Below are positions 1-61,883 of a stretch of DNA of 64,000 bases, one piece after another. The position numbers and the translations under genes are program-made. The notes below the pieces were generated by a model, which was not told where the DNA came from, made no database searches, and worked only from the letters and a program-made list of their open reading frames with translations. This DNA comes from Ianthella basta. Taxonomy: Eukaryota > Porifera > Demospongiae > Verongiida > Ianthellidae. Each line of letters opens with the position of its first letter. Position 1 is the first letter of the stretch. The stretch spans positions 956,642 through 1,020,641 of the forward strand of contig OZ025869.1 of assembly GCA_964019415.1 (NCBI GenBank), read 5' to 3'.

Positions 1-308
1 ACCCCACCCACAACTGTCCCTGTGCCCTATACCCTGGTCCGTCTGCTCCTCCATTTGTGGGAGAGAAGTACTTCTGCGAGTCAGGTGCTACTGGGACATA
101 TGTGTTCAGCCGATGGTTCCTCAATGGCCCTCTGTGGGACTCCAAGGGGTGTCCAGTCGGCAGCCAATGTTGCAATCGTGGTGGACCGTGGTTCAGTACC
201 TCAGCAAACCAGGAAGTGAATGACGACATAGAATTGAGGATTTGTTCTTACGAACCTTCAGTCCTTGATGACATTGGACTTGAACAACTTGAGATATATG
301 TTAACTGA
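1..308 (+). CDS. Collagen-stalk secreted protein, copy 1 (3' end only)
   Basis: The reading frame is open from base 3 to the TAA at 306-308 and has no start, because the gene enters from outside the window. About 101 C-terminal residues remain. They match the end of the globular head of the six complete paralogues: the [10 protein letters not shown] segment, FVGEKYFCESG, a PLWDSKGC motif, a CC pair before RGGPWFST, the acidic NDDIELR strand and the terminal LEIYVN. It belongs to head class A. It differs from its sisters just before the end (SYEPSVLDDIG), which is the most variable spot of the family. The collagen stalk is presumably upstream but is not seen. Confidence 0.9.
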   Translation, partial: PTHNCPCALYPGPSAPPFVGEKYFCESGATGTYVFSRWFLNGPLWDSKGCPVGSQCCNRGGPWFSTSANQEVNDDIELRICSYEPSVLDDIGLEQLEIYVN

Positions 309-960
309 TTACCAGCTGCAGGAAAGTTTCATCAGTCTAGGCCCACACAAATGTAGCTTTGCTGTTAGAAGTAGTGAACAGCAGTAGATTGCAGTTGTAC
401 CTGCTCAACCTATAGCTATGTAGGCCTGTATAGCTTGAGTGTCATGGAGTGTGTAAGTAGTGATTGATACTCCTCCAAACCAGTGACATGTGATGGCAAA
501 GAAAGCAGTGGCATGTTTACAGTTTGAACAAGCACATTGTGTTAACTAACTTCCCTTGTTTACTACTTGCTGAACTATAGCTACTCATCATTTTTGTTGT
601 AGGCACCAGCATATGCTGTTAGCTGTAGTGAACAGTGCTAGCAGTGCTGTATAGATTGCTGTCTTACTACCACAACCATTGTATAGGAGCCATAGGCCTT
701 GTACATAGCTTGAGTGTCATGTAGTAAGTGCAAGAAGTAGTGACTGATACTCCTCCAAACCAGTGACATGTTACTGCAAAGAAAGCAGTGGCATGTTTGC
801 ACTTTTAACAGGTGCATCACACTACTGCACTTGTTTGTGTGAGCACTGTAGTCTACTACTATAGTGAACAGGGACAGAATGTCATAATAGCTACGTATAG
901 TGTAATAGGTCATCATGGAAAATAACTCAATCTTCCAAACATTAACAATGTCATGTTAAA
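309..960 (+). repeat. 3' flank block of the collagen-stalk genes, with an internal duplication
   Basis: This is the first copy of a block that follows every gene in the array except copy 7 (also at 9535, 17203, 34271, about 42960 and about 49430). It probably holds the 3' UTR. Part of it is duplicated inside this copy: the stretch around 365-560, containing AGCTTGAGTGTCATG and ACTCCTCCAAACCAGTGACA, returns in diverged form around 600-800. I saw no AATAAA close behind the stop codon. Confidence 0.7.
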
Positions 961-2155
961 CTGTTATTGGCAGCCGGCCCCATGCACACACAAACAAAGC
1001 CTTGCTTGTATGCGTATAACTACCAGATATGCCCGAATGATGTATCACAAGAAATCACAAAGGTGATGAAATTGTAACTCTAACCCATACAAGATGCGAC
1101 ACATGATGTTTCACAACCATGCAGAGACTGACCCACATTGCGTAGCATGCACCATGCATGTGCGTATATATAATTATGGATAGATAATTATGCATATTTA
1201 TGCAGTGAAATTTGAGCAAGTATATACACACATACATTTCTGTATATATACTCACATCAATCAGTTCTGTCCATCTCTGACAACTAGTGAACTAGTATTA
1301 AGCAAACATCTCACCACAATTGGGACCTATGAAATAATTATCGACTAATGGTACTACACTGGATAGACGACTGGTCGCTTTAGTATCCTCCACAAGTCAA
1401 ACACTTGTGGTTTGAAGATAATTTATTTGATAAGGGGAAGTTACAGGCAGCACAGATGGTGTGAAGTTTTGGGGATCATACGGATGTCATGAAACTATTC
1501 GGGGAGGATGCTGCCAGGGGGACAATGTTGCTGTAAGAGGAGGTTGAGGAGGTCAGACACCTCTGCTTCAGCAATCTTTCCTCTTCATCAACTCTGTGGG
1601 ATAACTAAGTTAACGGAATGTAAGCACATCTAGGACTGTCATAGCAGCAACACGCACACACACACACACACACTTTTTTTTATTTTCACATTTCATTTAC
1701 TCAACAACATAACAGAGCAAAAGAAAGGGTGTTGAGTTTAAAACAGGTGATGCTCAGCATGCTGTGGAACACATGGCACATCAGTTAGTCCTGACCTCAA
1801 CAACAATGGTGTATGATAGCTATAACCTACAGAGACTAGCAATGACATTACATGTACACTATGATACTGCTTGGAAAAAACGTGTTACAGTGAATAATAC
1901 TTTATGGGTTTAACTGCTGTATGATGAAAAACTTGCTGTGTTTCTCAGTGCCCAGATAGTGTATGAGCCACATAGCGTTGCTTGTATGAGTTGCTCTTGC
2001 CCTTGATATCTTATGGTTCTGTTGGTGTTCGTTAGGTTAAAGAGATAGTCTAGGCTTCGAACGTCTAGGAAGCCTCTGCTGCCAACCTGTATGGTATGCA
2101 GGCTTCCTGCAATACCTTTCTGCCTCACTACTTCTAGAAGGTGTAGATATTTGGC
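961..2155. other. Non-genic spacer with a diverged copy of the 10.2-kb-type block
   Basis: I see no supportable gene. Around 1270-1440 lies a diverged copy of a block seen better at 35470-35650, 44400-44600 and 50570-50750 (TTCTGTCCATCTC, then CACTTGTGGTTTGA). A (CA)n tract at 1651-1673 runs into a T-rich stretch. Confidence 0.5.
1651..1673. repeat. (CA)n microsatellite
   Basis: About 11 CA units with one CG interruption, followed directly by a T7 run. Confidence 0.95.
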
Positions 2156-2244
2156 TTCCTTCCTGATTGCAGCGTCCTGGAAATTTCCTTCCCAGCAAAC
2201 AGTGAGGGGAAGGAAATTTCCAGGACGCTGCAATCAGGAAGGAA
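2156..2244. repeat. Perfect 38-bp inverted repeat (hairpin), 13-nt loop
   Basis: The arm at 2156-2193 and the arm at 2207-2244 are exact reverse complements over 38 bp. The loop is AGCAAACAGTGAG at 2194-2206. The right arm runs straight into a (CA)n tract. Perfect arms of this length point to a recent origin, such as template switching, a foldback element or a hairpin RNA. No coding role is apparent. Confidence 0.95.
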
Positions 2245-2860
2245 CACACACACACACACACACACACACCTGCCGTCATAGAAGATACACCTCATGTCCA
2301 TTCAATAGTGAGTCTTAAACATGTTCCCTTCCATACGAATACCCATAATGGAGGAGGAGTCACAGGTGCAACCATGGCAACGTCAAGAGCCTCATCCTGT
2401 CCACATTATTACATTCCATTGATGTACATGAGCTGCACAAATTGAAGTAAATTGCCATGATGACAAAATTGAACATTGCATAAATCTACATGATGAGAGA
2501 GTCTATACAGTATGAATTACATGATACCCACCAACCCAAACTGGCACATCTGCTACTAGTTGGAATGGTTGTGGGAAACAAGTCTGAGCAGAGTTTGGGA
2601 GAAATACTGCCTAATAATGATATGCATACACAATTGAACCGTGGCGAAGGTGAATTGACTGTGAATAGACACAGTCATAGCATATTCAATACATGAACAG
2701 ATTGCAGCATGTTCAGGAGAATGTCATCAACACACAGTATTGCAATATTTACACCAGGATTATGAAATGGTTAACTGAACAGCTGTGGTAAGAGTATACT
2801 GCAGAGCTCATGCACCCAAACAGTGGAATTAACAGGGATGAGTTTACTATTTGAAGCTTC
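2245..2860. repeat. (CA)13 plus duplicated block, sister of the window end
   Basis: A (CA)n tract at 2245-2269 leads into a block starting CTGCCGTCATAGAAGATACA. It is nearly the same as 63477-64000 and is related to 18965-19260 and 39105-39450. No gene is supported in it. Confidence 0.75.
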
Positions 2861-3779
2861 ATCTGTCAATGGTTTTGTACATGGTTTGTGCCTACCAGGG
2901 GTGTTACTAAAATGTCCGCTTCATATAATGGGGAAGGCTTCACTGTCATAGAACTGAAAACGGTTTGAGATGCAATGAGGAGTGAAAGAACTGAAGCAAG
3001 AACAATGAACCACAAAAGGTAACTAAAAGCTAACAAAACATTAGAAACTGTGTGAATTTGCCTCTTGTAAACCATGTCACAAGAATAATACTATATGATG
3101 ATACATATCAGATCAACAAGTGGTCCATATGGCATTCAGAGAATAAACAAACCTATATATATAGAAGATGTTGGCTGTGAAATTGCATGTACACTATATG
3201 TACAGTGTACATGTATAAGAAACACAATCCAAATTTAGCACATCTTCTGCAATAAAAGTTATAGACTGACATGACTATATTCCTTCACATTGGTGAAAAC
3301 TCACAATAATTATTCCGCATTGTTCTGGATCATAGCTTTCGGTCATGTACGTGTAAAGAATCAAATGATGTCACAGACTATACTATCATTGATATAGCAG
3401 CAGACACAACATGGTCAACCTGTGTTAATATAATATTATAGTCATACAAACATGTACACTATACAATGTGTATGCATGCAGTACATGGCACTACAATCAG
3501 GAACAGCTATACTGCTCCCTCACAGCAGACAAATGATGTACAGGTTGTGAACTATCACCTCACAATGTTAGCACACACAGCTATAGACTGCTACCTATGG
3601 CTTACAACAGAATTACACATCCAAGTTCCCCCAATGAACACTCTCTCTGCAGTTCTTTAATACATAGCTATGTCCATACCCATAACACACTACAATGCAT
3701 GAGTACTAGTATATAATAATTAATAACTACTGTATGGCTGCATGCCTAGTCTGAATAGCAATATCATAGCATCAATTCC
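2861..3779. other. Non-genic spacer
   Basis: No gene is supported. Around 3449-3500 there is a short dispersed segment (AACATGTACACTATACAATG) that recurs near 10898, 52970 and 57783. Confidence 0.5.
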
Positions 3780-4160
3780 AAACTAATTGGGCTCCACCCG
3801 CTGTCATTCCTTTCACTTTCTCAGTTACTGTACACACAATGCCTCACATTCTGTTCATATTCCCCCACATTGCCTCACGTACACCACAGCTAGCCCTAGC
3901 ACTAATGGGATGTACACATGTTAGCAAAGCACACCACTGTGTACACTGTACACTTCACAGTATGATCTCATTCTACTGCACACAAATACTAGAACATGAG
4001 TGCAGTGCCTTTGCTGTATACTACCTCACCTGCAGTGGGTGTGAGTGATGTCATATCAGTAGCAATGCTTGTTTCATATAGTTGTTGTGTGATAGGCACA
4101 TTACCACTTACAGACATGAGCCATACTGACACAGTATACCCCAGTGCATGCGAGAGAGAG
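3780..4160 (+). repeat. Copy of the 936-bp dispersed/tandem block (partial)
   Basis: This contains CCTCACATTCTGTTCA and the conserved stretch up to TTGTGTGATAGGCACATTA. The same unit is at 5600-6930 (two copies), 19560-19831 and 23384-25330 (two copies). Short open frames in it keep the same peptide between copies, which recent duplication explains without coding constraint. Confidence 0.75.
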
Positions 4161-4632
4161 AGACTTGAGTAAGAAATACAGTATCACTAGCAGTTCATGT
4201 TTTCTTCACGAAAGGCATGTGATTTGTCACTGCCTCTTTCTCACGCAATGCAAGTGATTAGTGTGAGTGAACTGACACAACACATGCATCACACACACAC
4301 GGGAAGAGGGGAGGGGAGTGTGGCAGGAGGAAGAAGAAAGAGTGGATGGGGAGGAGGATGTAAGGGGAAGGGAAATGGGAAGGGAATGGAGTAGTAGGAG
4401 TTAATCAAGAACAACATGCTAGAGGCTGAATCTGGGCAGTATGGTAAATTCACTATGGTATACTACACATATGTACAAAACATCAGTAATCTTGCCCAGT
4501 CCAACTTTGTGCTTAACATTGTGCACGTGGAACATATGTGACAGTGAGACTATATATAATCTGCACAATCTGCTCTCCTTCCATGTACAAACCATGACTA
4601 CAGCATAACTTACAATTTGTGCATGACTTTGG

Positions 4633-4716
4633 CACATCAAGATGTTGTCATGGTGATGGAGATTAAAGAAGAGCTGTCCTTGCAATTCCCTTCCATAGCC
4701 CAATAGCTTGGTCAAC
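4633..4716 (-). pseudogene. Short copy of the LTKLLGYG exon module
   Basis: Read on the minus strand, this encodes LTKLLGYGRELQGQLFFNLHH-like peptide directly behind an intron-acceptor-like pyrimidine stretch and TAG. Sister copies lie at 37100-37183, 52018-52094, 53335-53411 and 63208-63287. Here only the first exon-like part remains and the long C-terminal part is missing. The original gene is not recognised. Confidence 0.45.
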
Positions 4717-4756
4717 CTATCAATGTGACAGCTAGTGACAGAGGTGTGAGGGAATG

Positions 4757-4757
<1 letters not shown>

Positions 4758-4844
<87 letters not shown>
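4758..4844. repeat. (CA)n microsatellite
   Basis: Pure CA, about 43 units. Confidence 0.98.
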
Positions 4845-4848
<4 letters not shown>

Positions 4849-5072
4849 GCACGCACCATGGTAACAACTTATGTACAAAGTTAGAATGAATACAACTGAA
4901 TACTTCAAATTGTTGCCCACTTGCTGTACCCTAGCTCTTGCTATACTGTGCCCATCCTACACCACACACAGCCCATGATATTTTGCTGCTTGTGGCTCAC
5001 CTCAACACCTAACAGCTGTTAGAACAGACACATGGCAGCCCATGCCTTGGTCCACTCCATACAAGTGTATAC

Positions 5073-5178
<106 letters not shown>

Positions 5179-5519
5179 CTAAACAGGATAATGGAAACCA
5201 CTCTTACAGTCTAGTGTATTTGAGAGAGTTACTGTATTTAAGAGACTACAGCTGAAAGTGTACAATGCCATCATATTACCCTCACTGATGTATGGAAGTG
5301 AAACATGGGTATCGAATAAACAACATGAGTAGCTGTACAGGCAACAGAAATGAGGGTGTGCACAATATCAGTAAACCATCAGGCCATATAGCTTTCAACA
5401 GAATTACAAGCATGCTTACACACACACACTGAACATTGATGCAGGTTAATTTGATAGCTCTTCTCTACAGTTCTTTAATAGCAATGCCCATACCCATAAC
5501 ACACTGCACTCATCATATG

Positions 5520-6930
5520 AGTACTAGCATAATAATTATTAGAAACCATGGCTGCATGTTTAGTCTGAGAAGCAATGACATACATCCATTTTAAACTAAT
5601 TGGGCTCTATCCGCTGTCATTCCTTTCACATTCTCAGTTACTGCACACCCAAGCCTCACATTCTGTTCACATTCCCCCACATTGCCTCACGTACACCACA
5701 GCTAGCTATAGAACTAATGGGATATACACATGTTAGCAAAACACACCACTGTGTACACTGTACACTTCACAGTATATTCTCATTCTACTGTACACAAATA
5801 CTAGAACATGAGTGAAGTGCCTTTGCTGTATCCTACCTCACCTGCAGTGGGTGTGAGTGATGTCATATCAGTAGCAATGCTTGTTTCATATAGTTGTTGT
5901 GTGATAGGCACATTACCACTTACTGTACATGGAAGCCATACTGACACAGTATACCCCAGTGCATGTGAGAGAGAGAGAGACTAGAGTAAGAAATGCAGTA
6001 TGTCTGGTTCTTGTTGTAACAAGCTACTATGCATCATTTCAGGAAGCCAATGGTATGCGCTCAGAGCCATCCTACGTACATCATACAGTTTGCATCCTTC
6101 AGCTCTTGCTACTCACTTAGATCACCATTCTATGTCACTGCTTTCCCTGCTCACTGACTGGGGCTGTGTTGTTAGGTCTCAAGAGGCCGCTGCTGATGAA
6201 CATGACGCAGAGAACAGGCATTGCGGTCAACAGTGAAGTAGTTTCACACAATGTAGCCACGTATATAGCTAGCCAATGTTATGAATGAATTATCTAGCTT
6301 GTTACTTGAGCCCTGGCCTAAGCTTCACTTCCTGTGTCATATATAATACAAACGCCGTGTTATTTCCTGCAACATTTTCTTTACTTACCGGAGACTGTAC
6401 ATAGCTAAGTCATAAAGTTAGAGACACACCACAACTGATGTACATCTGTCTCCATGAAGGAAATGCAGACAACAGAAACCATGTCTGTATGTTTAGTCTG
6501 AGAAACAATGACATACATCCATTCCAAAGTGTGTGGGCTCCATCCGCTGTCACTCCTTTCACTTTCTCAGTTACTGTACACACAATGCCTCACATTCTGT
6601 TCACATTCCCCCACATTGCCTCACGTACACCACAGCTAGCTATAGCACTAGTGGGATATACACATGTTAGCAAATCGCACCACTGTGTACACTGTACACT
6701 TCACAGTACAATCTCATTCTACTGTACACAAACACTGTAACATGAGTGCAATGCCTTTGCTGTATCCTACCTCACCTGCAGTGGATGTGAGTGATGTCAC
6801 ATCAGTAGCAATGCTTACTTCATACAGTTGTTGTGTGATAGGCACATTACCACTTACAGACATGAAGCCATACCATACTGACACAGTATACCCCAGTGCA
6901 TGTGAGAGAGAGAGAGAGAGAGAGAGAGAG
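5520..6930 (+). repeat. Two tandem copies of the 936-bp block
   Basis: The CCTCACATTCTGTTCA landmark near 5652 returns near 6589, a period of about 937 bp. Between them lies the intervening part (CTTGTTGTAACAAGCTACTA, then TTTCCTGCAACATTTTC). A (GA)n tract at 6904-6930 ends the second copy. The same tandem pair exists at 23384-25330. No gene is supported. Confidence 0.75.
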
Positions 6931-7677
6931 TGTGTAGTATCTAGAGGCACTCAATCTAAGTTAGCTAAGTTGCTGTAGAGACGCCCAAGGACCGTTTCCG
7001 TTAAAGTCAGTCAGCTTGTTAAATGTCAGAGTCCTTATTGGCCAGTACATTGCTCTGTCACTACATTATAGATTGTTCTCACTACACACTGTGACACATA
7101 CACGTGCATGTGGATGTGAGAACTACATACACATTGCACCATTGCACACAGCCACTTCCACTATCCACCGTACAGGATACACACATACAACTCCAAATAG
7201 TATGCAGATAGCTAGAGAGATGGATACATGCACTCATGTTTTACGCATTACACATTAATGTTCATAGCAATACGTCCATGCAGCCCAATCTACACACACT
7301 CCTGCGCGTGGGTTATGTGTACTATGTGCACTCTAAATATTTCCTGCAACAATCTCTTCACTGACCGTGGTCTAGCTGTGTAGCTAAGTCACAAAGTTAG
7401 AGACACACATCACGATTGATGTACATCTGTTTCTTTGAAGGAAATGCAGACAATGTGTGCACTAGGAAAGGGAAGAGAATGCTGATTAGCTCATCCGTTC
7501 AATTTGCCGTGCAAGAAGACCTTATATCAATCTACCAACCATGCATCTTAGTGTTCATGATCACAGTGTGATGTGGTGGATTACAAGACAGCGCGATCAT
7601 ACCATTAATTGCTATAATGGGGCTTCAGGTGTTTGTCTCATTTGATTGTAGCAGTAGCAGGTTGTGTGTAATATGTA
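6931..7677 (+). repeat. Upstream spacer block of the gene array (copy a)
   Basis: This long block precedes gene copy 2. It contains AAGTCAGTCAGCTTGTTAAA, TTTCCTGCAACA and CAAGAAGACCTTATATCAAT. Related copies are at 25331-26040, 29690-30320, 40261-40560 and 58480-59260. No gene is supported. Confidence 0.65.
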
Positions 7678-7734
7678 CACACACACATACACACACTCTC
7701 ACACATGCACACACACGCACACACACACACACAT
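7678..7734. repeat. Imperfect (CA)n tract
   Basis: CA units with TA, TC, TG and CG interruptions. Confidence 0.9.
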
Positions 7735-7796
7735 ACTGTATGTCAATGAGCTTATACGATATAACATTAAGGTTTGGTGCTCACTAAAGGATGCTT

Positions 7797-8036
7797 TGAC
7801 AGATATTTGATGAATGTAGGTCAGGATATCTAGATGTGAATGTCTACTATCTGTTGCAGCTCTAGTACATGTGTTGCTATGGTAACAGTGCATCAGTTCA
7901 GTTAGCATTGATTCAGTGTATTGTATACAGACAGTATACAGGAAGTGAGACATATCAGTGTAAATATGTGGTGTTAACCACATCAAAGAGTTAGTACCTT
8001 TATAAAGATGGCTGTGGAGTGTCAGCAGTTCAGTTT
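7797..8036 (+). promoter_or_regulatory. Promoter of collagen-stalk gene copy 2
   Basis: In order: TAGGTCA in the conserved 5' stretch; an RFX-type X-box GTTGCTATGGTAAC at 7873-7886; the inverted repeat TGTATACAGACAGTATACA at 7922-7940; an ETS-like CAGGAAGTG at 7939-7947; TATAAAG at 8001-8007; and a TCAGTT initiator with its A at 8032. TATA to initiator is 31 bp, the standard spacing. All of these recur before the other five copies except the ETS-like site, which is lost in copies 6 and 7. Factor binding is inferred from motifs only. Confidence 0.75.
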
Positions 8037-8112
8037 CAGCTGCAACTCAGGTCTGCTGTCCCAAAGGCAAACTCTTAGAGAAGCACAACCTATTGCTTTT
8101 GAAAGCTAGAGA

Positions 8113-8124
8113 ATGGCCTATTAA
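8113..8124 (+). promoter_or_regulatory. Minimal upstream ORF (M-A-Y-stop) in the 5' UTR of copy 2
   Basis: ATGGCCTATTAA is the only ATG I see between the predicted start of transcription and the main ATG at 8227. The same uORF is at 32951-32962 before copy 4. In copies 3, 5, 6 and 7 the ATG has become ACG or ACA. Confidence 0.55.
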
Positions 8125-8226
8125 CATTCTGCCAAGAATAGAGAGCTTCAAGACAACTTCCAAAGACAGCAGCAATCAAGGAGTAGCAACGTCTTCCAGT
8201 GAGAACAGAAGGAACTGCCAGTGAGG

Positions 8227-9534
8227 ATGCTTCCCCTTACAGTCAAGCTCCTAGCAGCTCTTACCTGCTTCACTGCTGTGTACCTCACAACAGAAGCAGC
8301 TGACACTTGCTCTGCAGCGACTTGCATCCCTGGCCTACCAGGGAGAGATGGCAGAGACGGACAGCCAGGACACAATGGCAACGATGGTGTTGCAGGACCT
8401 CCAGGACGCGATGGGCGTGATGGTATCCCTGGGCAGACTTGTGGAACAGGAGGGTCTGTACTGGAGGGACCTCCAGGGCTGAATGGCACCGATGGAGAGC
8501 AGGGTCCACCTGGTCCACAGGGACCTCCAGGACAGAATGGCGCTGATGGTATCCCAGGTGATAACGGGGTAGACGGCCAGCCAGGACCACCTGGTGCACA
8601 AGGCCCCCCTGGACTCCCCGGTGCACTGAATGACACTGCCCAGCAACAGCTGAAGGATGACATTCTCAATGAGCTCAGAGATGAATTAAGTATGCTGCAG
8701 GGTTGCTGCAGCAGTCAACCTACTCCAACTGAACCACAATGTGAACATAATGCTACTTCCTGTAAAGAACTATACCAATGCAATCCAGCTACCCCTTCAG
8801 GATACTACAACATTACAACACCACAGGGAGTGGAAAGGGTGTATTGTCAAATGAACACAACCAATTGTGGCAACATCACTGGAGGTTGGACAAGGGTAGC
8901 TTTCATTGACATGACAGACTCTGGAAACAGTTGTCCGCCAGAATTTACACCTGAAACTCAGTCATCAATACGAATGTGCAGGTCATCAAGATCAGGAAGA
9001 GGGTGCACCGCCTTCATCAACTACCCAGTGCATGGCATTGCCTACAAGAACATTTGTGGTAGAGCTCTGGGATACCAATATGGCACTGGCGAAGCATTTT
9101 GGGGTTATGCGAGAACTGGTCACAATACAACAGCGGGTCACTATTCTGATGGACTATTGGTAACACGTGGCACAGCTCGGCACCATGTCTGGACATTTGC
9201 AGCAGGACTATCCAAAGACTACAACTACCCTACCAGCAACTGTCCCTGTGCCTTATACCCTGGTCTGTCTGCACCTACATTTGTGGGAGAGAACTACTTC
9301 TGCGAATCTGGGGACATTGGGACATATCAGTTCAGCCGGTGGTACCTTGATGACCCTCTGTGGGACTCACAGGGGTGTCCAGCTGGTAGCACATGCTGCA
9401 GTCGTGGTGGTCCATGGTTCAGTACCTCAGCAGACCAGGAAGTGAATGACGACATAGAAGTGAGGATTTGCTTTGCTGACCCTTCAACCCATGATGACCT
9501 TGGACTACAGCAACTTGAGATATACATTAACTGA
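8227..9534 (+). CDS. Collagen-stalk secreted protein with fibrinogen-like head, copy 2 (class A)
   Basis: An intact single-exon frame of 435 residues. The ATG at 8227 is chosen because it begins a clear signal peptide (about 1-24, ending TTEA). Then come Cys28 and Cys33; a Gly-X-Y stalk of 12 triplets (36-71); a nine-residue break with a Cys (72-80, CGTGGSVLE); 18 more triplets (81-134); a helical neck (135-158) with Leu147/150/154/157 in 3-4-3 heptad spacing; a CC pair; and a Cys-rich head (179-435). The head opens like a fibrinogen-related domain (CKELYQC, SGYYNI, VYCQM, GGWTR) and then diverges ([38 protein letters not shown]). N-glycosylation sequons such as NATS and NITG occur. This is a collectin/ficolin-like design, so a trimeric extracellular recognition or matrix protein is likely. 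The ligand is unknown. Related heads occur, as I recall, in unnamed cnidarian and sponge proteins. Confidence 0.93.
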
Positions 9535-9935
9535 TTACCAGCTGCAGGAACGTTTCATCGGTCTAGGCCCGTACAAGTGTAGCTTTGCTGTTAGAAGTAG
9601 TGAGCAGCAGTAGATTGCAGTTGTACTTGCTCAACCTATAGCTATGTAGGCCTGTATAGCTTGAGTGTCATGGAGTGTGTAAGTAGTGATTGATACTCCT
9701 CCAAACCAGTGACATGTGATGGCAAAGAAAGCAGTGGCATGTTTACAGTTTGAACAAGCACATTGTGTTAACTAACTGTCCTTGTTTGGGTCACTACTGT
9801 AGCCTACTACAGTGCATGAGCAGGGACAGAATGCTGTATAATTTTATAGCATTGTGGGTCATCTGAGAACATATCACAATCTACTGATACTATAATAATG
9901 TCAAGTTAAAGTATGTTCAGCACCTCAAGCTGTGC
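9535..9935 (+). repeat. 3' flank block of copy 2
   Basis: Begins GATTACCAGCTGCAGGAA right at the stop codon and matches the flank of copies 1, 3 and 4. Probable 3' UTR. Confidence 0.75.

Positions 9936-10946
<1,011 letters not shown>

Positions 10947-11019
<73 letters not shown>
10947..11019. repeat. (CA)n microsatellite
   Basis: Pure CA, about 36 units. Confidence 0.98.
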
Positions 11020-11020
<1 letters not shown>

Positions 11021-11668
11021 CACCTTGGCATACACTCGAAACACCAGTGCTAGTACTTCAACTCTACTATACTATATACGATGTACTACATCTTCTTCCT
11101 CCAAGCTAGGTATAGAAAGGTAATCTAACTTGCTGTTAGACCCAACACCCACTCACACACCTGCATGTGTATATACAGGTGTGTATGTACAATGGGCTAG
11201 CTACATCTCCTTCAATGAAGTGAAGAAATGTTACCCTAACACAACTTGTCTCCCCTCTGTAATAGCACTGTTGTTGACTACATTAATGTGTCACTTGAGA
11301 CTCCTGAGATACTTTGACATTATAGCTACACAGCTCATGCTAGTCCCCACTACTTAATTAGATGAAGGTAGAATGATGAAGTATATAGCTGTAAAGAGAG
11401 AGAACTGTTCCATGTACTCTAGCACTCTGTACGACTCCCACAACTGGACACAAGTGAAGGTACTGAAGTGGACAGTACTCTTGCTCTAGCACTCATCAGT
11501 ACTGCAATGATCACTTCAAGTCTACTACGCAGATCTAGTTGGTGATACTTCTCTAGGTGGAACAATCCAATGCACACATGTACACATTCCAGCACATTTT
11601 GCAAATGCACAGAGTATGTGGTATACACAATTAACCACATACGAGCACACAAACACATATACTCACAT
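11020..11668. repeat. Dispersed block with splice-acceptor-like TCCCCTCTGTA
   Basis: Contains CTACATCTCCTTCAA followed by CAACTTGTCTCCCCTCTGTA. Relatives are at 12300-12480, 54700-54790, 55900-55980, 56530-56600 and 57180-57400. In several copies the pyrimidine run ends in TAG like an intron acceptor, but I could not assemble a gene from it. Confidence 0.5.
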
Positions 11669-12640
<972 letters not shown>

Positions 12641-14795
12641 TTGTATGACATGTTACATGTAATAGACAGACAGTCATCACAACTGATGGAGACCTGATGA
12701 GTTAGCCATCACAAGTGTAGAGTGTACAGTATGAACAGAACAGTTAACTGTAAGTTGTTGGAGCATGCTCTGTAGCAGTAGGGACTGGAGACAGGGGACC
12801 TGCCCACCCACAGGTGCCATGGCAACAGCTCATGTACAAAGTTTGAATTAATTCACGTTGGACCACTGCAGCACCATGCATTGTTGACAAACCATATATT
12901 GCTAGACAATTAAGAACCAATTGCACCCACACACTATTTACCGCTACCTGAGGAATGGCAACATGGAGCAAACATAGTCAACAACACACATGCATACATA
13001 CACACACAATCATCCGCACACATCACATTGAAATTCGAAACCTGCCGTTGCATGGATATGAGACATCTCACAATGACCCATTGCATACCTCAATGTCCAC
13101 CTACTACTGAGGAATCCTGACAAGAAATTAAGGAGCAAAACTAATCACCCCATGCAGCTACAGGCACACTCACATCCATCCACACACACACACTAGGCCA
13201 TGGACCCAGCTCCCCTTGTCATGCACACTGGCAGCTCTGCTAGGGCAGCAAGAGGAATGAAACAACAACACTGATGAACACTAGAGCATAAACAGCAACA
13301 CAGGCCACCTGCCCCCCTGGGGGGTAGCAAGGAATGAGTCAACAACGACAATACTCATGGGCAGATAGACACAATGAGGAATGCCAATGGATTGCTTTGA
13401 CTGCTACAGTACACACACCGTATAAGGACTGGGTCAGTAAAGGCAGTGAAATAGTCTCCCATAGCTGGAGCAAAATGGCGGTCTGGCCGTATGTTAGACT
13501 AACCTAGATACCAATTGCTGGTTGTAACTTTGTGCTCAACACCAAATACTAAGCAGGCTCACACACAGAGAGAGAGATCATATAGTCTATTTGATAGTTT
13601 TTGGCAGTTCTAAAAGATGGCTATAGCTACAGTACAGCTGTGCCATGCAGGCCATAACACACCACATCGAGTACGTGTTACAGCACTACAAAAAAACAAT
13701 ATCTTAACGATACAACTGTAGATACTCTAGCTAGGAGCTATATAGGTGCAGGTGCTTCTTCTATGAGGGTAGCTAGCTAACCGCGCACCATTTCGGGAAG
13801 CGACTGTAATAGGCTTAGCTAATGATGTGTGCTCAAAGCTATCCCAACACCACACACAGTTGGCATACCTCAGCTCACACGGTGCACGCATCTCACCTTC
13901 TGTGTCGCTCTTGTTACTGCTCGCTGCGTAGCTGAAGTGCTGTGATGTTAGGGTCCCAAGAGGAGGGAGAGGGGCAGCGAAAATGATGGATGGTCCAACA
14001 GCGAAACATTTTCAAGCAATGTGGCCACAACTCTTATGGGTGAACTCTCTTCCCACTCGAGCCTTGAGCTTCATCTTTGGGAGGAGGGATTGGCAGAAGC
14101 TTCCGCAACTGACCAGCACTAGCTAGTTAGCTAAGGCATATTAAAGTTAGAGACACACAACGCGATGCGCATCTGTTTCTGTGAAGGAAGCTAAAGTGCA
14201 ATTGACAGAAAGTGGCTCTAGAGTAAGAAATGGTATATATCGCAATCAGTTCAGGATTATCCAACACTGCATATGGTATGTTACGCTCCACCATCTCTCT
14301 AAGACTTACACAACTGAGTAGTGTCACTTCTCCACTGATCGGATCGACACAAACTACTGTACTGCTACAATCTTTTGTAATATGCACATTCTATACTGAA
14401 GACCCACTGACTGTACTTTCTTCCCATCAACAACCTTCCCACACTGTACACACCCCACAATCATGCTGGTTGTAACACACCTTAACACCTAACAGCTGCT
14501 AGTACAGACACATGGAAGCCCATGCCTTGGGCCACTCCATACAAGTGTACAAAACACACACAACAGTAACAGCACAAGATCAGTATGCACCAGATCACAT
14601 AGCTTACAGCAGAAATACACAAGTGCTATATAGTGCTCACACACAAAGAGCACTCATCCAGCCTATTCTGAAAGCTATTCTTGGCAGCTTATAATAGATA
14701 CAATATATGCTCATAACACATCACACTGACTGCTATTTAACATAATTGATACACACAGTATGAATATATATGTTACGCGCATACCTATATACAAA
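12641..14795. other. Spacer with X-box-like site and diverged repeats, no supported gene
   Basis: GGTGCCATGGCAAC at 12813-12826 is close to an RFX palindrome. The stretch 13222-13402 is a diverged copy of 46426-46601 (GGCAGCTCTGCTAGGGCA). The stretch 13790-14190 is a diverged copy of the upstream spacer block. A minus-strand frame of 86 codons at 14127-14387 has no recognisable features, and I do not call it. Confidence 0.5.
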
Positions 14796-14834
14796 CACAC
14801 ACACGCATGCACACACACACACACACAGACACAC

Positions 14835-14877
<43 letters not shown>

Positions 14878-14879
14878 CA
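14796..14879. repeat. (CA)n microsatellite with CG interruptions
   Basis: About 40 CA units with interspersed CG and GA steps. Confidence 0.96.
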
Positions 14880-15226
14880 TGATGACTGAGTACATGACTC
14901 CACTTGTAGAAAGAGCAACACACATGTCCTGATAATGTACCAGTTGTAGGTAATGGTCAGTGAGGGGAGTGGAGCTGACAGTGACTACAAGGTGTACAGA
15001 ATACACAAGGCATTCACATCATTCCTACAACATGTCCACATTGTTTTACTCCAAAGCACATCCAACATACAGTGTGTTTAGTGGTGGAATTACACGACTG
15101 TGTGACTCTATGGGTCTTCAGTTGTCTGTCTCATTTGCTTGTAGTGGTTGCAGGGAATAGTAGAATTTATGCATGGGCTGGAAGGAGAAAGGAATATTCA
15201 TTCATATATGCATACAAGACTTGCTA

Positions 15227-15229
<3 letters not shown>

Positions 15230-15305
<76 letters not shown>

Positions 15306-15318
15306 ACATACACATGCA
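15230..15318. repeat. (CA)n microsatellite
   Basis: About 42 units with a CG/TA interruption near 15270. Confidence 0.96.
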
Positions 15319-15449
15319 CATTTGTATACTTGTACCCAGCTATGTGAAGGTGCTCATCAATCCCCTCCTCCCCTCTTTAAAGTTCTAGCTACGATATGTC
15401 AATGAGCTTATACAATATAACATTGAGGTTTGGTGCTCACTAAAGGATG

Positions 15450-15692
15450 CTTTGACAGATATTTGATGAATGTAGGTCAGGATGTCCAGATGTGAATGTC
15501 TACTATCTGTTGCAGCTCTAGTACATATGTTGCTATGGTAACAGTGCAGCAGTTCAGTTAGCCTTGATTCAGTGTATTGTATACAGACAGTATACAGGAA
15601 GTGAGACATATCAGTGTAAATATGTGGCGTTAACCACATCAAAGAGTTAGTGCCTTTATAAAGATGGCTGTGGAGTGTCAGCAGTTCAGTTT
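15450..15692 (+). promoter_or_regulatory. Promoter of collagen-stalk gene copy 3
   Basis: X-box GTTGCTATGGTAAC at 15529-15542, ETS-like CAGGAAGTG at 15595-15603, TATAAAG from 15657 and a TCAGTT initiator with A at 15688. Spacing is the same as for copy 2 (TATA to A 31 bp, X-box end to A 146 bp). The 5' UTR has no ATG, because the uORF of copy 2 is mutated here. Confidence 0.75.
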
Positions 15693-15897
15693 CAGCTGCA
15701 ACTCAGGTCTGCTGTCCCAAAGGCAAACTCTTAGAGAAGCACAACCTATTGCCTTTGAAAGCTAGAGAACGGTCTATTAACATTCTGCCAAGAATAGAGA
15801 GCTTCAAGACAACTTCTAAAGATAGCAGTGAAAGACTGTAGCGATCAAGAAGTAGCAACGTCTTCCAGTGAGAGAACAGAAAGAACTGCCAGTGAAG

Positions 15898-17202
15898 ATG
15901 CTTCCCCTTACAGTCAATTGCAAGCTCCTTGTAGCTCTTACCTGCTTCACTGCTGTGTACCTCACAACAGAAGCAGCTGACACTTGCTCTGCAGCGACTT
16001 GCATCCCTGGCCTGCCAGGGAAAGATGGCAGAGATGGACAGCCAGGACGCAATGGGAACGACGGTGTTGCAGGACCTCCAGGACGTGACGGGCGTGATGG
16101 TATCCTTGGGCAGATTTGTGGAACAGGAGGGTCTGTACTGCAGGGACCTCCAGGGCTGAATGGCACCGATGGAGAGCAGGGTCCACCTGGTCCACAGGGA
16201 CCTCCAGGACAGAATGGCACCGATGGTATCCCAGGTCGGAATGGGGCAGACGGCCAGCCAGGACCATTCGGAGAGCAAGGCCCCCCAGGAATCCCCGGTG
16301 CACTGAATGACACTGCCCAGCAACAGCTGAAGGATGACATTCTTAATACTCTCAGAAATGAAATAAGTATGCTGGGTTGCTGCAACATTCCAAGTCCTGA
16401 GCCGCTGTGTGAACGTAATGCTACATCCTGCAAAGAACTATACCAGTGCAATCCAGCTACCCCTTCAGGATACTACAACATTAGGACTCCACAGGGAGTG
16501 GAAAAAGTGTACTGTGAAATGAACACCACTAACTGTGGCAACATCACTGGAGGTTGGACAAGGGCAGCTTTCATTGACATGACGGACCCTAGAAACAGTT
16601 GTCCACCAGAACTTACACCTGAAACTCAATCATCGATACGAATGTGCAGGACGTCAAGATCAAGAGGAGGGTGCACCGCCTTCATCAACTATCCAGTACA
16701 TGGCATTGCCTACAAGAACATTTGTGGTAGAGCTCTGGGATACCAATATGGTACCACTGAAGCATTTAGGGGTTATGCAAGTAGTGGTCAGAGTACCAGA
16801 GCAAGTCGCTATGCTGATGGACTGTTGGTAACACGTGGCACAGCTCGGCACCATGTCTGGACATTTGCAGCAGGACTATCAAAAGACTACAACTACCCTC
16901 CCTGGAACTGTCCCTGTGCCCTCTACCCTGGTCCTGCTGGACCTTCATTTGTTGGACAGAACTACTTCTGCGAATCTGGGGATATCGGGACATGGCAGTA
17001 CAGCCGCTGGTTCCTCGATGACCCTCTGTGGGACTCACAGGGGTGTCCAGCTGGTAGCACATGCTGCAATCGTGGTGGACCGTGGTTCAGTACCTCAGCA
17101 GACCAGGAAGTGAATGATGACATAGAAGTGAGGATTTGCTGTAATGAACTATCAACCCGCGATGACCTTGGACTGGAACAACTTGAGATATACATAAACT
17201 GA
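15898..17202 (+). CDS. Collagen-stalk secreted protein, copy 3 (class A)
   Basis: An intact single exon of 434 residues. The ATG follows an in-frame TAG in the 5' UTR. Two extra residues sit in the signal peptide (VNCKLL). The stalk is as in copy 2: 12 triplets (38-73), a Cys break (74-82), 18 triplets (83-136). The neck is at 137-159 and the head starts at Cys178. The head differs from copy 2 in clusters: [14 protein letters not shown], the stretch before NCPCALY (YPPWN), [11 protein letters not shown] and the pre-terminal [11 protein letters not shown]. The NTT glycosylation site seen in that first cluster in copies 2, 4 and 6 is lost. The core motifs ([21 protein letters not shown]) are unchanged. 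Confidence 0.93.
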
Positions 17203-18816
17203 TTACCAGTTGCAGGAAAGTTACATCAGTCTAGGCCCATACAAGTGTAGCTTTGCTGTTAAAGTAGTGAACAGCAGTAGACTGCAGCTGTACTTGCTCA
17301 ACCTATAGCTATGTAGGCCTGTATAGCTTGAGTGTCATGGAGTGTGTAAGTAGTGATTGATACTCCTCCAAACCAGTGAAATGCGATGGCAAAAGAAAGC
17401 AATGGCATGTTTACAGTTTGAACAAGCACATCGTGTTAACTAACTGCACTTGTTTGTGTCACTACTGTAGCCTACCACAGTGAGCAGGGACAGAATTCTC
17501 ATAATTTTATAGCTTTGTGGGTCATCTGAGAACATATCACAATCTACTGATACTATAATAATGTCAAATTAAAGTATATTTAGTACCTCTAACTGTGCCA
17601 CACACACACACAGATACACATAAATATATACACAATTAAAGAAACACACACATACACACTCACACATATATACACACACATGCACACACTTCTTACACAA
17701 TGTTTGAATGGAGCCAGTGTCAATAACATAATTATACCAGATATATCTGAATGATGTGTTATTCAAAGAATTCACAAAGGAGATAAAATTACTGTAAATT
17801 CTATACCGAAAAGACTAAGATTAATTATTATTCATCAATGATGAATAATATATTATTGTATGTAAACAGATGTAATTAAGTAAACGTATAATTGCAAATT
17901 ATACACCTTCATATCTCTTACACTGATTCACTGTATTCAGTACTACACCTTAGCTGTAGGTGGAGTAACACCTCCTTCTACATGGATAGGGTTAGGTACA
18001 CTTGTACAAGTGAAGGCACTCACTCAAATCATTACATGATACGTGTCCATATCTAATACTCTCACATTGGACCACTGAGCCCCCACTCGCTGTTCCCTAG
18101 CTATTGCTGACAACAGCCATCCTACACCACACACCCCATGATCTATTGCTGGTTGTAACATTCCTCCCTCAACACCTAATAGCCATTTGTACAGACACAT
18201 GGCAGCCCATGCCTTGGTCCATGTCATATATGTGCACTAGATCAGTATGGACACCAGCTCCACAGCTTACAATAGAAATACAAACAGGCTCAGAACACTC
18301 AAGCTGGCTACTGAGTCTTAACATTCAATGTATATAGTCTGAAATAGGGAAACAATTAGAAGTAAGTCCAGTGATCCCACCTTGTCATCAACTGAGTTCG
18401 AGACTGTGCGGTGTCAGCACACAACCCCCGCTCCCCCTTAATGAGCATGGTTATGTGTGTGTTTATGCATTAGTTGATAGGCGGTGCTATCATGGAGACT
18501 ACCAATAATTATCCTGTCCTTGCAAACAAGTGCATACAGTTACACTCTGTTCCACTGATAATGTTTAACACTGAAACTGAACAATGCACTCCTAAATGCC
18601 TGAATGCTGTCTCACTGAAAGCACTCACAATGGAGATGACATTACATACATCTAACACATACACACACAAGGTATTTCATTCATTGTGAAACTTTGAAAT
18701 GTCATTTACTGTGAACAAGTATACTCCTGAAAAGACCAATGTTCAAGGAAGACTATCTGTGAACAGCTCAAATTACACACACGAGAAACACAGTACGTCA
18801 CACTATATGCACGCAT

Positions 18817-28507: not shown

Positions 28508-28607
28508 CTATATATGGAATCCTCAAAGGGCACTTGGATGATCCTCTGTGGCACTGAGGGGTGTGAGCGCATTAACCATAAATAGATCCCGTTGCTATGG
28601 TAACGGG
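28508..28607 (-). promoter_or_regulatory. Probable promoter of the 257-residue gene, with RFX X-box
   Basis: A TATATA box (28510-28515) lies 110 bp upstream of the ATG. The X-box GTTGCTATGGTAAC at 28591-28604 is the same 14-mer as in the collagen-stalk promoters. Here it sits inside the near-palindrome CCCGTTGCTATGGTAACGGG (28588-28607). I found no clear initiator. Confidence 0.5.
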
Positions 28608-41606: not shown

Positions 41607-42890
41607 ATGCTTCCCCTTATAGTCAAGCTCCTTGTAGCTCTTACCTGCTTCACTGCTGTGTACCTCACAACAGAAGCAGCTGCCACTTGCTCTGCAGCGA
41701 CTTGCATCCCTGGCCTGCCGGGGAGGGACGGCAGAGACGGACAGCCAGGACTCAATGGGAATGACGGTGTTGCAGGACCTCCAGGGCTGAATGGCACCGA
41801 TGGAGAGCAGGGTCCACCTGGTCCACAGGGCCCTCCAGGGCTGAATGGCACTAATGGTATCCCAGGAGAGAATGGGGCAGATGGCCAACCAGGACCACCT
41901 GGAGCACAAGGCCCACCAGGACGAGATGGAAGCAACGGCGCTACAGGATCTCCAGGTGTTGATGGGCGTGACGGTGTTGCGGGTGTGAATGGCCAACCAG
42001 GACCACCTGGTGCACAAGGCCCCCCAGGACTCCCCGGTACACTGAATGACACTGAGCAACAGCAGCTGAAGGAAGACATTCTCAGTGTGCTCAGAGATGA
42101 ACTGAGTATGATACAGTGTCGACTTGTCCCTACTTCCTGTAAAGAACTATATCAGTGCAATCCAGCTACCCCTTCAGGATACTACAACATTACAACACCA
42201 CAGGGAGTGGAAAGAGTGTACTGTGAAATGGACACATCAGATTGTGGCAGCATCACTGGAGGTTGGACAAGGGTAGCTTTCATTAACATGACAGATATTG
42301 CTAATACTTGTCCTCAGGGACTGACCTACACTGTCCAGTCCTCCATACGCATGTGTAGGTCTTCACATACCACTGCTGGCTGCACTGCAGCCACCTTCCC
42401 AACACACATGATTCCCTACACCAAGGTCTGTGGAAGAGCTCGTGGGTACGCACTTGTTTCACCAGATGCATTTCAAGCCGGTGGTCAGACCACTATAGAT
42501 GGTTACTATGTTGATGGTTTATCAGTAACTCATGGCAGCTCTCGTAACCACATCTGGACCTTCGCAGCAGGAGTATCAAAGGACAACAACTCCCCTTGCT
42601 GCAACTGCCCTTGTGCCCCTTTTCCTGGTCCTGCTGCACCTCCATTTGTGGGAGAGAATTACTTCTGCGAGTCTGGGAGCGGGGGAGTATTGTACTCCCA
42701 GTGGTACCTTGATGACCCTTTGTGGGACTCACAGGGGTGTGCAAGTGGAAGCATATGTTGTGATCGTGGTGGACCGTGGTTCAGTACCACACTGAATGAA
42801 GTCACACGGGATGACATTGAAGTGAGATGGTGTTTTAGTGACCATTTTGAAGACATTGGAGTGGATCAGTTGGAGATCTATGTCAACTAA
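41607..42890 (+). CDS. Collagen-stalk secreted protein, copy 5 (class B)
   Basis: An intact single exon of 427 residues. The signal peptide is as in copy 2. The Asp before the first Cys is Ala here ([10 protein letters not shown]). The stalk is 37 unbroken Gly-X-Y triplets (36-146), with no CGTGG break and an extra module ([18 protein letters not shown]) not present in class A. The neck is at 147-169 and the head starts at Cys178 with a short linker. The head is class [31 protein letters not shown] replaces the class [20 protein letters not shown] region (shown here only as landmarks: [14 protein letters not shown]), followed by [20 protein letters not shown] and the common [15 protein letters not shown] and DDIEVRWC. 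It lacks the linker sequon NATS. Confidence 0.93.
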
Positions 42891-48129: not shown

Positions 48130-49401
48130 ATGCTTCCCCTTACAGTCAAGCTCCTTGTAGCTCTTACCTGCTTCACTGCTGTGTACCTCACAACAGAAGC
48201 AGCTGACACTTGCTCTGCAGTGACTTGCATCCCCGGCCTGCCAGGGAGAGACGGCAGAGACGGACAGCCAGGACGCAATGGGAACGATGGTGTTGCAGGA
48301 CCTCCAGGACGTGATGGGCGTGATGGTATCCCTGGGCAGACTTGTGGAACAGGAGGGTCTGTACTGCAGGGACCTCCAGGGCTGAATGGCACCGATGGAG
48401 AGCAGGGTCCACCTGGTCCACAGGGACCTCCAGGACAGAATGGCGCTGATGGCATCCCAGGAGAGAATGGGGTTGATGGCCAACCAGGACCACCTGGTGC
48501 ACAAGGCCCCCCTGGACTCCCTGGTGCACTGAATGACACTGAGCAGCAACAGCTGAAGGATGACATTCTCAATGAGCTCAGAGATGAATTAAGTATGTTA
48601 CGATGTGAGACAGGACTCTACACTTCCTGTAAAGAACTATACCAATGCAATCCAGCTACCCCTTCAGGATACTACAACATTACAACACCACAGGGAGTGG
48701 AAAGAGTGTATTGTCAAATGAACACATCAAATTGTGGCAATGTCACTGGAGGTTGGACAAGGGCAGTTTTCATTGACATGACAGACCCTGGAAATAGTTG
48801 TCCACCTGAACTTACACTTGAAAATCAATCATCAATACGAATGTGCAGGTCATCAAGATCAGGAAGTGGGTGCACCGCCTTCATCAACTACCCAGTACAT
48901 GGCATTGCCTACAAGAACATTTGTGGTAGAGCTCTGGGATATCAATTTGGCACTGGTGAAGCATTTTGGGTTTATGAGGGTAGAGGTCACAATACAACAG
49001 CGAGTCACTATGCCGATGGACTGTTGGTAACACGTGGCACAGCTCAGCACCATGTCTGGACATTTGCAGCAGGAATATCTAAAGACTATAACTACCCCGG
49101 GTACAACTGTCCCTGTGCCCTATACCCTGGTCCGTCTGCACCTTCATTTGTGGGAGAGAACTACTTCTGCGAATCTGGGGACATTGGGACATATCAGTTC
49201 AGCCGGTGGTACCTTGATGACCCTCTGTGGGACTCCCAGGGGTGTCCAGCTGGTAGCACATGCTGCAATCGTGGTGGTCCATGGTTCAGTGCCTCAGCAG
49301 ATCAGGAAGTGAATGATGACATAGAAGTGAGGATTTGCTTTTATGATGACTCGACCGATGATGACCTTGGACTGGAACAACTTGAGATATACATTAGCTA
49401 A
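48130..49401 (+). CDS. Collagen-stalk secreted protein, copy 6 (class A)
   Basis: An intact single exon of 423 residues. The stalk is exactly as in copy 2 (12 triplets, Cys break, 18 triplets). The linker after the neck is shorter (RCETGLYT in place of the CC...NATS linker), so the head starts at about Cys167. Differences from copy 2 cluster again at [21 protein letters not shown] and the pre-terminal [11 protein letters not shown]. It ends LEIYIS instead of LEIYIN. The head is closest to copies 2 and 4. Confidence 0.93.
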
Positions 49402-60046: not shown

Positions 60047-60313
60047 TTCGACAGATATTCGATGAATGTAGGTCAGGATATCTAGATGTGAATGTCTACT
60101 ATCTGTTGCAGCTCTAGTACATATGTTGTCATGGTAACAGTGCAGCAGTTCAGTTAGCCTTGATTCAGTGGATTGTATACAGACAGTATACAGGGATGGT
60201 GAGACATATCAGTGTAAATATGCATTCTTAACCACATCAAAGAGTTAGTGTCTTACAGATGCAGTGCAGAACAAATATAAGAAGGACAGCTGTGGAGTGT
60301 CAGTAGTCAGTTT
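60047..60313 (+). promoter_or_regulatory. Promoter of copy 7
   Basis: X-box variant GTTGTCATGGTAAC at 60125-60138, TATAAG from 60276 and TCAGTT initiator A at 60309 (33 bp). The ETS-like site is destroyed (CAGGGATGGTG). Confidence 0.7.
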
Positions 60314-60506
60314 TCAGCTGATAGTCAAGTCTGCTGTCCCAAAGGCAAACTCTTAGAGAAGCACAACCTATTTCCTTTGAAAGCTTAAAAACGGCCTATT
60401 AACATTCTGCCAAGAATAGAGAGCTTCAGGACAACATTCAAAGACAGCAGCGATCAAGGAGTAGCAACGTCTTCCAGTGAGAGAACAGAAAGAACTGCAA
60501 GAGAAG

Positions 60507-61883
60507 ATGCTTCCCCTTACAGTCAAGCTCCTTGTAGCTCTTACCTGCTTCACTGCTGTGTACCTCACAACAGAAGCAGCCGACACTTGCTCTGCAGCAA
60601 CTGGCATCCCTGGCCTGCCAGGGAGAGACGGCAGAGACGGACAGCCAGGACGCAATGGGAATGACGGTGTTGCAGGACCTCCAGGACGTGACGGGCGTGA
60701 TGGAATCCCTGGGCAGACTTGTGGAACAGGAGGGTCTGTACTGCAGGGACCTCCAGGGCTGAATGGCACCGATGGAGAGCAGGGTCCATCTGGTCCACAG
60801 GGACCTCCAGGACAGAATGGCACCAATGGAATCCCAGGTCGGAATGGGGCAGATGGCCAACCAGGACCACCCGGAGCACAAGGCCCACCAGGACGAGATG
60901 GAAGCAACGGCACTACAGGATCTCCAGGTGTTGATGGGCGTGACGGTGTTGTGGGTGTGAATGGGGTTAATGGCCAACCAGGACCACCTGGTGCACAAGG
61001 CCCCCCAGGACTCCCCGGTACACTGAATGACACTGAGCAACAGCAGCTGAAAGATGACATTCTCAATGTGCTCAGAGATGAACTAAGTGTGCTGATACAG
61101 TGTCGACTTGTCGCTACTTCCTGTAAAGAACTATACCAGTGCAATCCAGCTACCCCTTCAGGATACTACAACATTAGTACACCACAGGGAGTGGAAAGAG
61201 TGTATTGCGAAATGAACACATCAAATTGTGGCCACCTCACTGGAGGTTGGATGAAGGTGGCCAATATTGACATGACAGATGAGAACAATGCCTGTCCTGA
61301 GAACCTCAACTACACTGTCCAATCCTCTATGCGCATGTGTAGGTCTTCACATACCACTGCTGGCTGCACTTCAGTCACCTTCCCAGCACACATGATTCCC
61401 TACACTAACGTCTGTGGAAGAGCTCGTGGGTACGCATTTGGTTCACCAGATGCATTTCACCATGGTCAAGCCGGTGGTCAGACCATAGATGGTTACTATG
61501 TTGATGGTTTATCAGTGACACATGGCAGCCCCCGAAACCACATCTGGACATTTGCAGCAGGACTGTCAAAACTGGCATATTATCCAGACTACAACTGTCC
61601 CTGTGCAGTCAACCCTGGTCCGGCTTCACCTCCATTTTTGGGAAGCAACTACTTCTGCGAGTCAGGGTTAACTGGCATAAGTGAATTACTTATATGGTAC
61701 CTTGATGACCCTTTGTGGGACTCACAGGGATGTACAAGTGGAAGCACTTGCTGTATTCGTGGCGGACCGTGGTTCACTACCACTTTCAACCAGGAAGTGA
61801 ATGACGACATAGAAATCAGGTGGTGTTCTAGCGACATTGGTGAAGATGTCGGAGTGGATCAACTGGAGATCTATATCAACTAA
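60507..61883 (+). CDS. Collagen-stalk secreted protein, copy 7 (class B head, mixed stalk)
   Basis: An intact single exon of 458 residues, the longest copy. The second N-terminal Cys is lost (ATGIPG instead of ATCIPG). The stalk has 13 triplets (33-71), the Cys break CGTGGSVLQ (72-80) as in class A copies 2, 3 and 6, then 31 triplets (81-173) including the [19 protein letters not shown] module otherwise seen only in copy 5. The neck is at 174-197. The head (from about Cys206) is class B ([37 protein letters not shown]) with its own stretches [11 protein letters not shown] and [16 protein letters not shown]. The junction of class A 5' and class B 3' sequence suggests unequal crossing-over or gene conversion. 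Confidence 0.93.

Follow-up and report, generated by a model that had tools for sequence, protein, structure and literature searches.

A large family of mostly intronless genes in the sponge Ianthella basta for collagen-stalked proteins with a Cys-rich head domain that also occurs in Deltaproteobacteria and Myxococcota

What kind of protein is encoded by a row of similar genes in the demosponge Ianthella basta, and where does its C-terminal head domain come from? The window analysed here is a stretch of 64,000 nucleotides (64 kb; assembly GCA_964019415.1, contig OZ025869.1, positions 956,642 to 1,020,641 of the forward strand), in which seven copies of one gene type are present, all on the plus strand. 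An earlier note on this DNA had described a one-stranded, seven-gene array of collectin/ficolin-like proteins and had assigned them to an independent early-animal family. The copy number and the common strand hold, but only five copies are intact single-frame open reading frames (ORFs) of 423-458 amino acids (aa), one being frameshifted and one a fragment cut by the window edge, and the head occurs at no fewer than 310 places genome-wide. The intact proteins do have the proposed architecture: a hydrophobic leader is followed by a Cys, a Gly-X-Y stalk, a short Leu-rich neck, and a C-terminal Cys-rich head of about 255 aa. The head itself is not confined to animals: metagenome-assembled genomes of Deltaproteobacteria/Myxococcota contain the domain in full.

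The head contains 15-17 Cys. In gene 2 (8227-9534, plus strand, 435 aa), an intact copy with leader, Cys, Gly-X-Y stalk, neck and head, it occupies 8758-9531 (plus strand, 258 aa), and its first ~47 aa match NCBIfam NF040941 (GGGWT_bact, a 46-residue module of the form YCDxxxxGGGW). This model matches the window head at 34 bits (cut-off 30), all 27 heads scanned at E ≤ 1 (the cut-off being shown for the first only), and 24 of the 25 heads of alignment A7 at E ≤ 0.01. The fibrinogen-like part is restricted to the first 37-75 residues. Fibrinogen_C (PF00147) matches 0 of 27 heads in Pfam at E ≤ 1, so that none of those tested has a recognisable ficolin-type head, and no C-type lectin domain was detected by Pfam in the heads scanned. 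At the head start, Pfam gives weak partial matches to the N-terminal part of COLFI, below the cut-off where one was shown; the full COLFI domain is absent from all 27 heads, and no C4/NC1 domain (PF01413) was found in the three window proteins scanned. Comparison of the head profile with the profile of the genome's own fibrinogen domains aligned 42 columns. In a PDB profile search using 14 animal and 11 bacterial heads as the query, the top matches were XEEL (3.3e-10), a lamprey serum lectin (3.7e-9) and intelectin-1 (6.7e-9), the leading lectin matches together spanning 3.3e-10 to 8e-9, followed by the collagen III C-propeptide (1e-4) and then tenascin, angiopoietin and fibrinogen, all of which were confined to the first 67 head residues. 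Beyond residue ~75, nothing significant was found in Pfam or PDB. Because the PDB, Pfam and profile matches are restricted to its start, the head appears to open like a fibrinogen domain and to continue as something of its own, which agrees with the earlier description of a non-canonical Cys-rich head beginning like a fibrinogen-related domain. It may represent an intelectin-like domain of a separate kind, composed of a fibrinogen-like first subdomain of ~50 aa and its own Cys-rich part of ~190 aa, an assignment that we hold with moderate confidence, jointly with the whole explanation developed below.

When genomes of bacteria and archaea were scanned using the head alignment, 45 candidate stretches emerged, among which four relatives were confirmed. 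The best of them (L089) aligns to query residues 1-257 at E 4e-47, its top segment being 38% identical, and its gene adjoins yajC, secD and secF (recognised by eye), so that animal contamination is not the source of this sequence. When the L089 head was searched against 195 genomes of one phylum, 52 gave matches at E ≤ 1e-3 and three contained full-span heads (at least 170 aa of the query), most of the remaining matches covering the GGGWT start alone. In a second phylum, with up to seven candidates scored per genome, 25 of the 377 genomes sampled had matches at E ≤ 1e-12 (the same 25 when the search was repeated), and 16 had full-span heads. All 15 further bacterial regions, which were picked from long matches, reach profile position 254-255 of 255, and at most six long heads were seen in a single bacterial genome (G004). 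By eye, a lipoprotein-like leader and a (GE)n stretch precede the head at five loci (L092, L095, L097, L100 and L101); Cu-binding_MopE repeats do so in L089 and L090, and TSP_3 in L089. No collagen was seen by eye in the bacterial head proteins, four of which were scanned. Among viral contigs, 17 stretches matched a pattern and none encoded a relative. Three bacterial genomes (G001, G368 and G227) contain many GGGWT-only matches in open frames of ~500-2800 aa, with up to 107 first-look candidates in one genome, few of which were scored; such matches probably form a large bacterial adapter family.

Phylogenetic trees were used to place the animal heads among the bacterial ones, the principal one having 49 rows and including 22 animal heads picked for diversity out of the 310 places. 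These 22 heads formed one side of a branch in three trees (support 99-100/99; 100/99 in the 49-row tree), and it is most likely that the animal heads descend from one bacterial gene. The bacterial heads nearest to the animal clade are L089 (96/64) and L120 (92/92), both of which share a CC.....PWF stretch with the animal heads that is absent in L090, L098 and L122. Midpoint and minimal-ancestor-deviation (MAD) roots both fall inside the bacterial part of the tree, with a MAD score of 0.204 inside bacteria versus 0.242 for the branch separating animals and bacteria (rank 18 of 96). Since the roots lie among bacteria, the transfer probably went from bacteria to the animal.

The size of the family in the sponge genome was estimated from the union of four own-genome searches, each of which scored 147-150 of 568-608 first-look candidates, and the resulting number of at least 310 distinct places is a lower bound. 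At 242 of these places the frame around the head stays open for 320 aa or more, including at least one frame (C22:5104533) and probably two more (C2:946995 and C2:2898092) that run into N, which was read as open; 39 places contain an internal stop. With a gap limit of 60 kb, the family falls into 27 clusters of two or more and 21 single places, as would be expected of the expansion by local duplication that had been proposed. Canonical Fibrinogen_C matches (at least 141) constitute a separate set in this genome, and those that are near full length lie in frames of ~220-310 aa (table read by eye), as separate exons would give; a much longer entry in the table, 1977 aa at C19:607918, may extend across N. 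The difference between unbroken head frames and split-looking fibrinogen genes suggests that the head genes are mostly intronless in their coding part. For the window, the claim that all copies are intronless applies to the coding sequence of the five intact copies, which may still have an intron in the 5′ untranslated region. In addition, a 22-kb contig (G000:C43) carries five head genes at 2294-17954 and may be an unplaced array or an alternative haplotype, and equal-scoring pairs of heads, such as G000:C19:4152648 and 4191170 (~38.5 kb apart), may reflect recent block duplication or unmerged haplotypes.

The N-terminal part of the predicted proteins was compared across 26 complete leaders from fetched loci, a set drawn largely from the top-scoring matches of a window head rather than at random. 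A hydrophobic leader, judged by eye, and a Cys ahead of the stalk are present in the intact window proteins, as had been noted. Collagen (PF01391) matches all three window proteins scanned, and 24 of the 26 complete leaders are followed by a collagen stalk of at least five uninterrupted triplets (8-40 in those 24). Interruptions of the Gly-X-Y stalk, which the earlier note had considered a general feature, do occur, but the stalk of the gene at 41607 has none. Likewise, the reported 3-4-3 Leu heptad neck is matched in part: the spacing L..L...L..L is exact in the intact genes 2, 6 and 7, but one Leu is replaced by Ile in genes 3 and 5, and the heptad does not exceed shuffled necks in 24 of 26 leaders. 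Different leaders and stalks carry heads that share 77-89% identity with the gene 2 head (L012, L024 and L025), which points to reassortment of stalks and heads between genes. L024 and L025 also have an additional partial head start (~35 aa) ahead of the full head.

Purifying selection holds the scaffold of the head, and variation clusters in loops. The mean ratio of nonsynonymous to synonymous substitution rates (dN/dS) is 0.41 over 153 pairs of 18 heads from one cluster, and nonsynonymous variation is densest in the most variable stretch of the head, aa 106-129 (permutation p ≤ 0.0004, central windows; 9073-9144 on the plus strand in gene 2), statistics that take no account of gene conversion. 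Outside this stretch, the most variable single sites lie near 80, 151-160, 187-192 and 240-245. Among 11 bacterial heads, too, conservation is lower at the 25 most variable sites (0.36 vs 0.50, p = 0.011), and the same comparison with the animal rows included gives p = 2.9e-6.

On balance, we consider it probable that these proteins are secreted, collagen-stalked, multivalent binders resembling collectins and ficolins, whose head was taken from bacteria and then multiplied. The Gly-X-Y stalk would make trimers, the Cys beside stalk and neck would join them into larger assemblies, and the terminal head would bind ligands, in all likelihood glycans of microbial surfaces or of the matrix; a conserved scaffold bearing variable loops would suit a soluble multivalent binder. 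One bacterial head gene would have been acquired, fused to a collagen stalk, kept intronless, and multiplied to more than 300 copies. Secretion, trimerisation, glycan binding and a role in defence are what we infer from the sequences, glycan binding because the head start is intelectin-like and because the head is displayed on stalks in both the animal and the bacteria. A bolder version, which we put forward tentatively, is that an early animal lineage took up, in a single event, a cell-surface recognition domain of a Myxococcota-like bacterium and placed it on a trimeric collagen stalk. Intronless expansion to more than 300 variable-loop copies, with stalk/head reassortment, would then have given a collectin-like recognition repertoire independent of C-type lectins and ficolins.

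Several observations weigh against this explanation. With regard to the transfer, the nearness of L089 and L120 to the animal heads has moderate support (85/90, unresolved, in an earlier tree); MAD and midpoint rooting presume similar rates, yet the bacterial branches are long; and the animal side of the tree comes from one genome. In addition, the Fibrinogen_C model recognises the bacterial protein L090 above its cut-off (24.9 bits vs 22) along 44 profile positions, which indicates a head start shared with fibrinogen domains and would allow a transfer from animals to bacteria. With regard to architecture, a stalk of five triplets is absent in 2 of the 26 complete leaders, and one head (L082) follows its leader without a stalk, so collagen is not universal. 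A crude heptad score exceeds that of shuffled necks in 2 of the 26 leaders (L071 and L076, on C19), both stalkless, for which reason a trimerising neck is put no higher than plausible. Finally, positive selection on the loops was not detected, the smallest p for the difference between nonsynonymous and synonymous proportions (pN-pS) being 0.09 among the 12 windows listed, and dN exceeds dS in just one of 153 pairs.

The main rival to a soluble binder is a role in the matrix, in which the proteins would be short-chain collagens of skeleton or basement type and the head a trimerisation or assembly domain like the C-propeptide of fibrillar collagens. We regard it as unlikely. In its favour, partial COLFI matches at E ≤ 0.001 occur at 88 genome places, many but not all of which belong to this family (of 304 candidates, 150 were scored), and the first residues of the head resemble the C-propeptide of collagen III (1e-4). 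Against it stand the lack of C4 (PF01413) in three window proteins and of a full COLFI in 27 heads, and stalks of 8-40 uninterrupted triplets (24 stalked leaders) are short for fibres; more than 300 diverging copies with a variable stretch would presumably be unusual for a structural collagen, and the bacterial head proteins, by eye, show no collagen. Spongin short-chain collagen, as we take it to be defined, was set aside as a candidate, C4 being absent in the three window proteins. From skeletons, the available part of PMC4633127 reports fibrinogen-type proteins in the mineral proteome of a coralline sponge, and that of PMC7853314 reports such proteins in red coral skeleton, one of which, without Gly-X-Y, had been automatically named collagen; both are compatible with a matrix role.

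Alternatively, the head may be of animal origin and have reached bacteria in one or more transfers, a route that has been suggested for certain g-type lysozymes of myxobacteria; full heads are indeed distributed patchily among bacteria (16 of 377 genomes in one sample, 3 of 195 in another), and PMC12855814, in its available part, infers an animal-to-myxobacteria transfer for another family. Such an origin seems improbable to about the same degree as the matrix role, given that diversity is greater among the bacterial heads than among the 22 from the animal, that clock-type roots fall among bacteria, that matches to the GGGWT start are common on many other proteins in one phylum (52 of 195 genomes, E ≤ 1e-3), and that the animal genes read through without introns. 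Variable heads could also serve self/non-self or cell-cell recognition instead of recognising microbes, and large tandem families with clustered variation and stalk/head reassortment (L012, L024 and L025 compared with the window genes) would fit an allorecognition or cell-adhesion repertoire. With no transmembrane anchor noticed by eye in the five intact window genes and positive selection not detected, we think this quite unlikely. True ficolins or collectins, which have the same stalk-neck-head plan, are the least probable reading and very improbable indeed, as neither Fibrinogen_C nor a C-type lectin domain occurs in the animal heads scanned and canonical Fibrinogen_C matches form their own set (at least 141) in this genome; at the domain level, a canonical ficolin or collectin is ruled out for the heads scanned.

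The other copies in the window, all on the plus strand, are as follows. Gene 1 (3-308) comprises the last ~100 codons of a head, the rest being cut off by the window start. Gene 3 (15898-17202) is intact and encodes 434 aa with the head at 16426-17199, whereas gene 4 (33067-34270) is broken: its stalk frame spans 33067-33645 and its head, in a different frame, 33494-34267, the shift being located between neck and head. A near copy of gene 4, in which the head frame begins in a similar way, is found at L015 (C2:938528), ~51.6 kb from window position 33494, and it is probable that the broken copy was itself duplicated. The remaining intact genes are gene 5 (41607-42890; 427 aa, an unbroken stalk of 37 triplets, head 42135-42887), gene 6 (48130-49401; 423 aa, head 48625-49398) and gene 7 (60507-61883; 458 aa, head 61119-61880), the last being the richest of the five in Gly-X-Y residues. 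In gene 2, neck and linker occupy 8626-8757 (plus strand), where the heptad compared with shuffles gives p = 0.178 (locus L009). Between genes 3 and 4 there is a reverse transcriptase ORF on the minus strand (20435-22387; RVT_1 8.7e-38, together with an endonuclease-type match).

Genes 2-7 also have in common an upstream block of about 430-500 bp (7795-8226, plus strand, in gene 2), with 83-94% identity to that of gene 2. It contains a 14-bp palindrome, GTTGCTATGGTAAC (GTTGTCATGGTAAC in gene 7), which starts at 7873 (7873-7886 in gene 2), 15529, 32688, 41223, 47787 and 60125 and sits 343-384 bp ahead of the start codon. We take GTTGCTATGGTAAC to fit the RFX X-box consensus. A promoter role was given no weight, because the palindrome or its gene 7 variant is found upstream in 9 of 30 loci (L009-L038), may simply have been copied along with the genes, and has related palindromes in repeats. 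An identical 14-mer is present at 28591-28604, ~190 bp upstream of a minus-strand ORF (27630-28400, 257 aa) that has no Pfam match at E ≤ 0.01 and is surrounded by DNA unlike the upstream block of the array.

If the proposed origin is correct, the family would be a third animal route to a collagen-stalked lectin system, its head having come from bacteria in which it is likewise shown on stalks, and the origin of animal soluble pattern-recognition proteins would become testable by comparing the fold and ligand of bacterial and animal heads. It would presumably also rank among the larger intronless gene families in an animal genome. Pfam recognises the family mainly via its stalk, and no description of the family was found among the titles and abstract starts of the open-licence papers that the searches listed.

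Among known systems, ficolins and collectins share the leader, N-terminal Cys, Gly-X-Y stalk, neck and C-terminal head, but Pfam assigns the present head to neither of their head families, Fibrinogen_C and C-type lectin. Fibrillar collagens resemble it in their C-propeptide (COLFI) over the first ~40 head residues (1e-4), the rest of the head being unmatched, and the stalk is short and interrupted by comparison. Intelectins (X-type lectins, including XEEL), which bind exocyclic diols in a calcium-dependent manner, are the best solved relatives of the first 67 residues (3e-10), with no significant sequence match past this N-terminal part. A placozoan intelectin-like expansion is similar in outline to the head by its description in the available part of PMC6321704, where it is said to lack collagen repeats: most of its members are clustered and ~250 aa long, with a signal peptide and a brief fibrinogen-like stretch at the N-terminus, and most have 10 conserved Cys. 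Cnidarians, too, may have heads of a similar type. Sponge genes with fibrinogen domains (PF00147) respond, up and down, to microbial signals, as reported in the available part of PMC6208332. A precedent for transfer from bacteria to early animals, with myxobacteria involved, is the g-type lysozyme, which is an enzyme whose early-animal genes have introns according to the available part of PMC12855814. Bacterial counterparts are the GGGWT_bact (NF040941) proteins of Deltaproteobacteria/Myxococcota, which have the module in common with the sponge family and a subset of which possess the complete head, carried on (GE)n stalks or MopE/TSP3 repeats and not on collagen.

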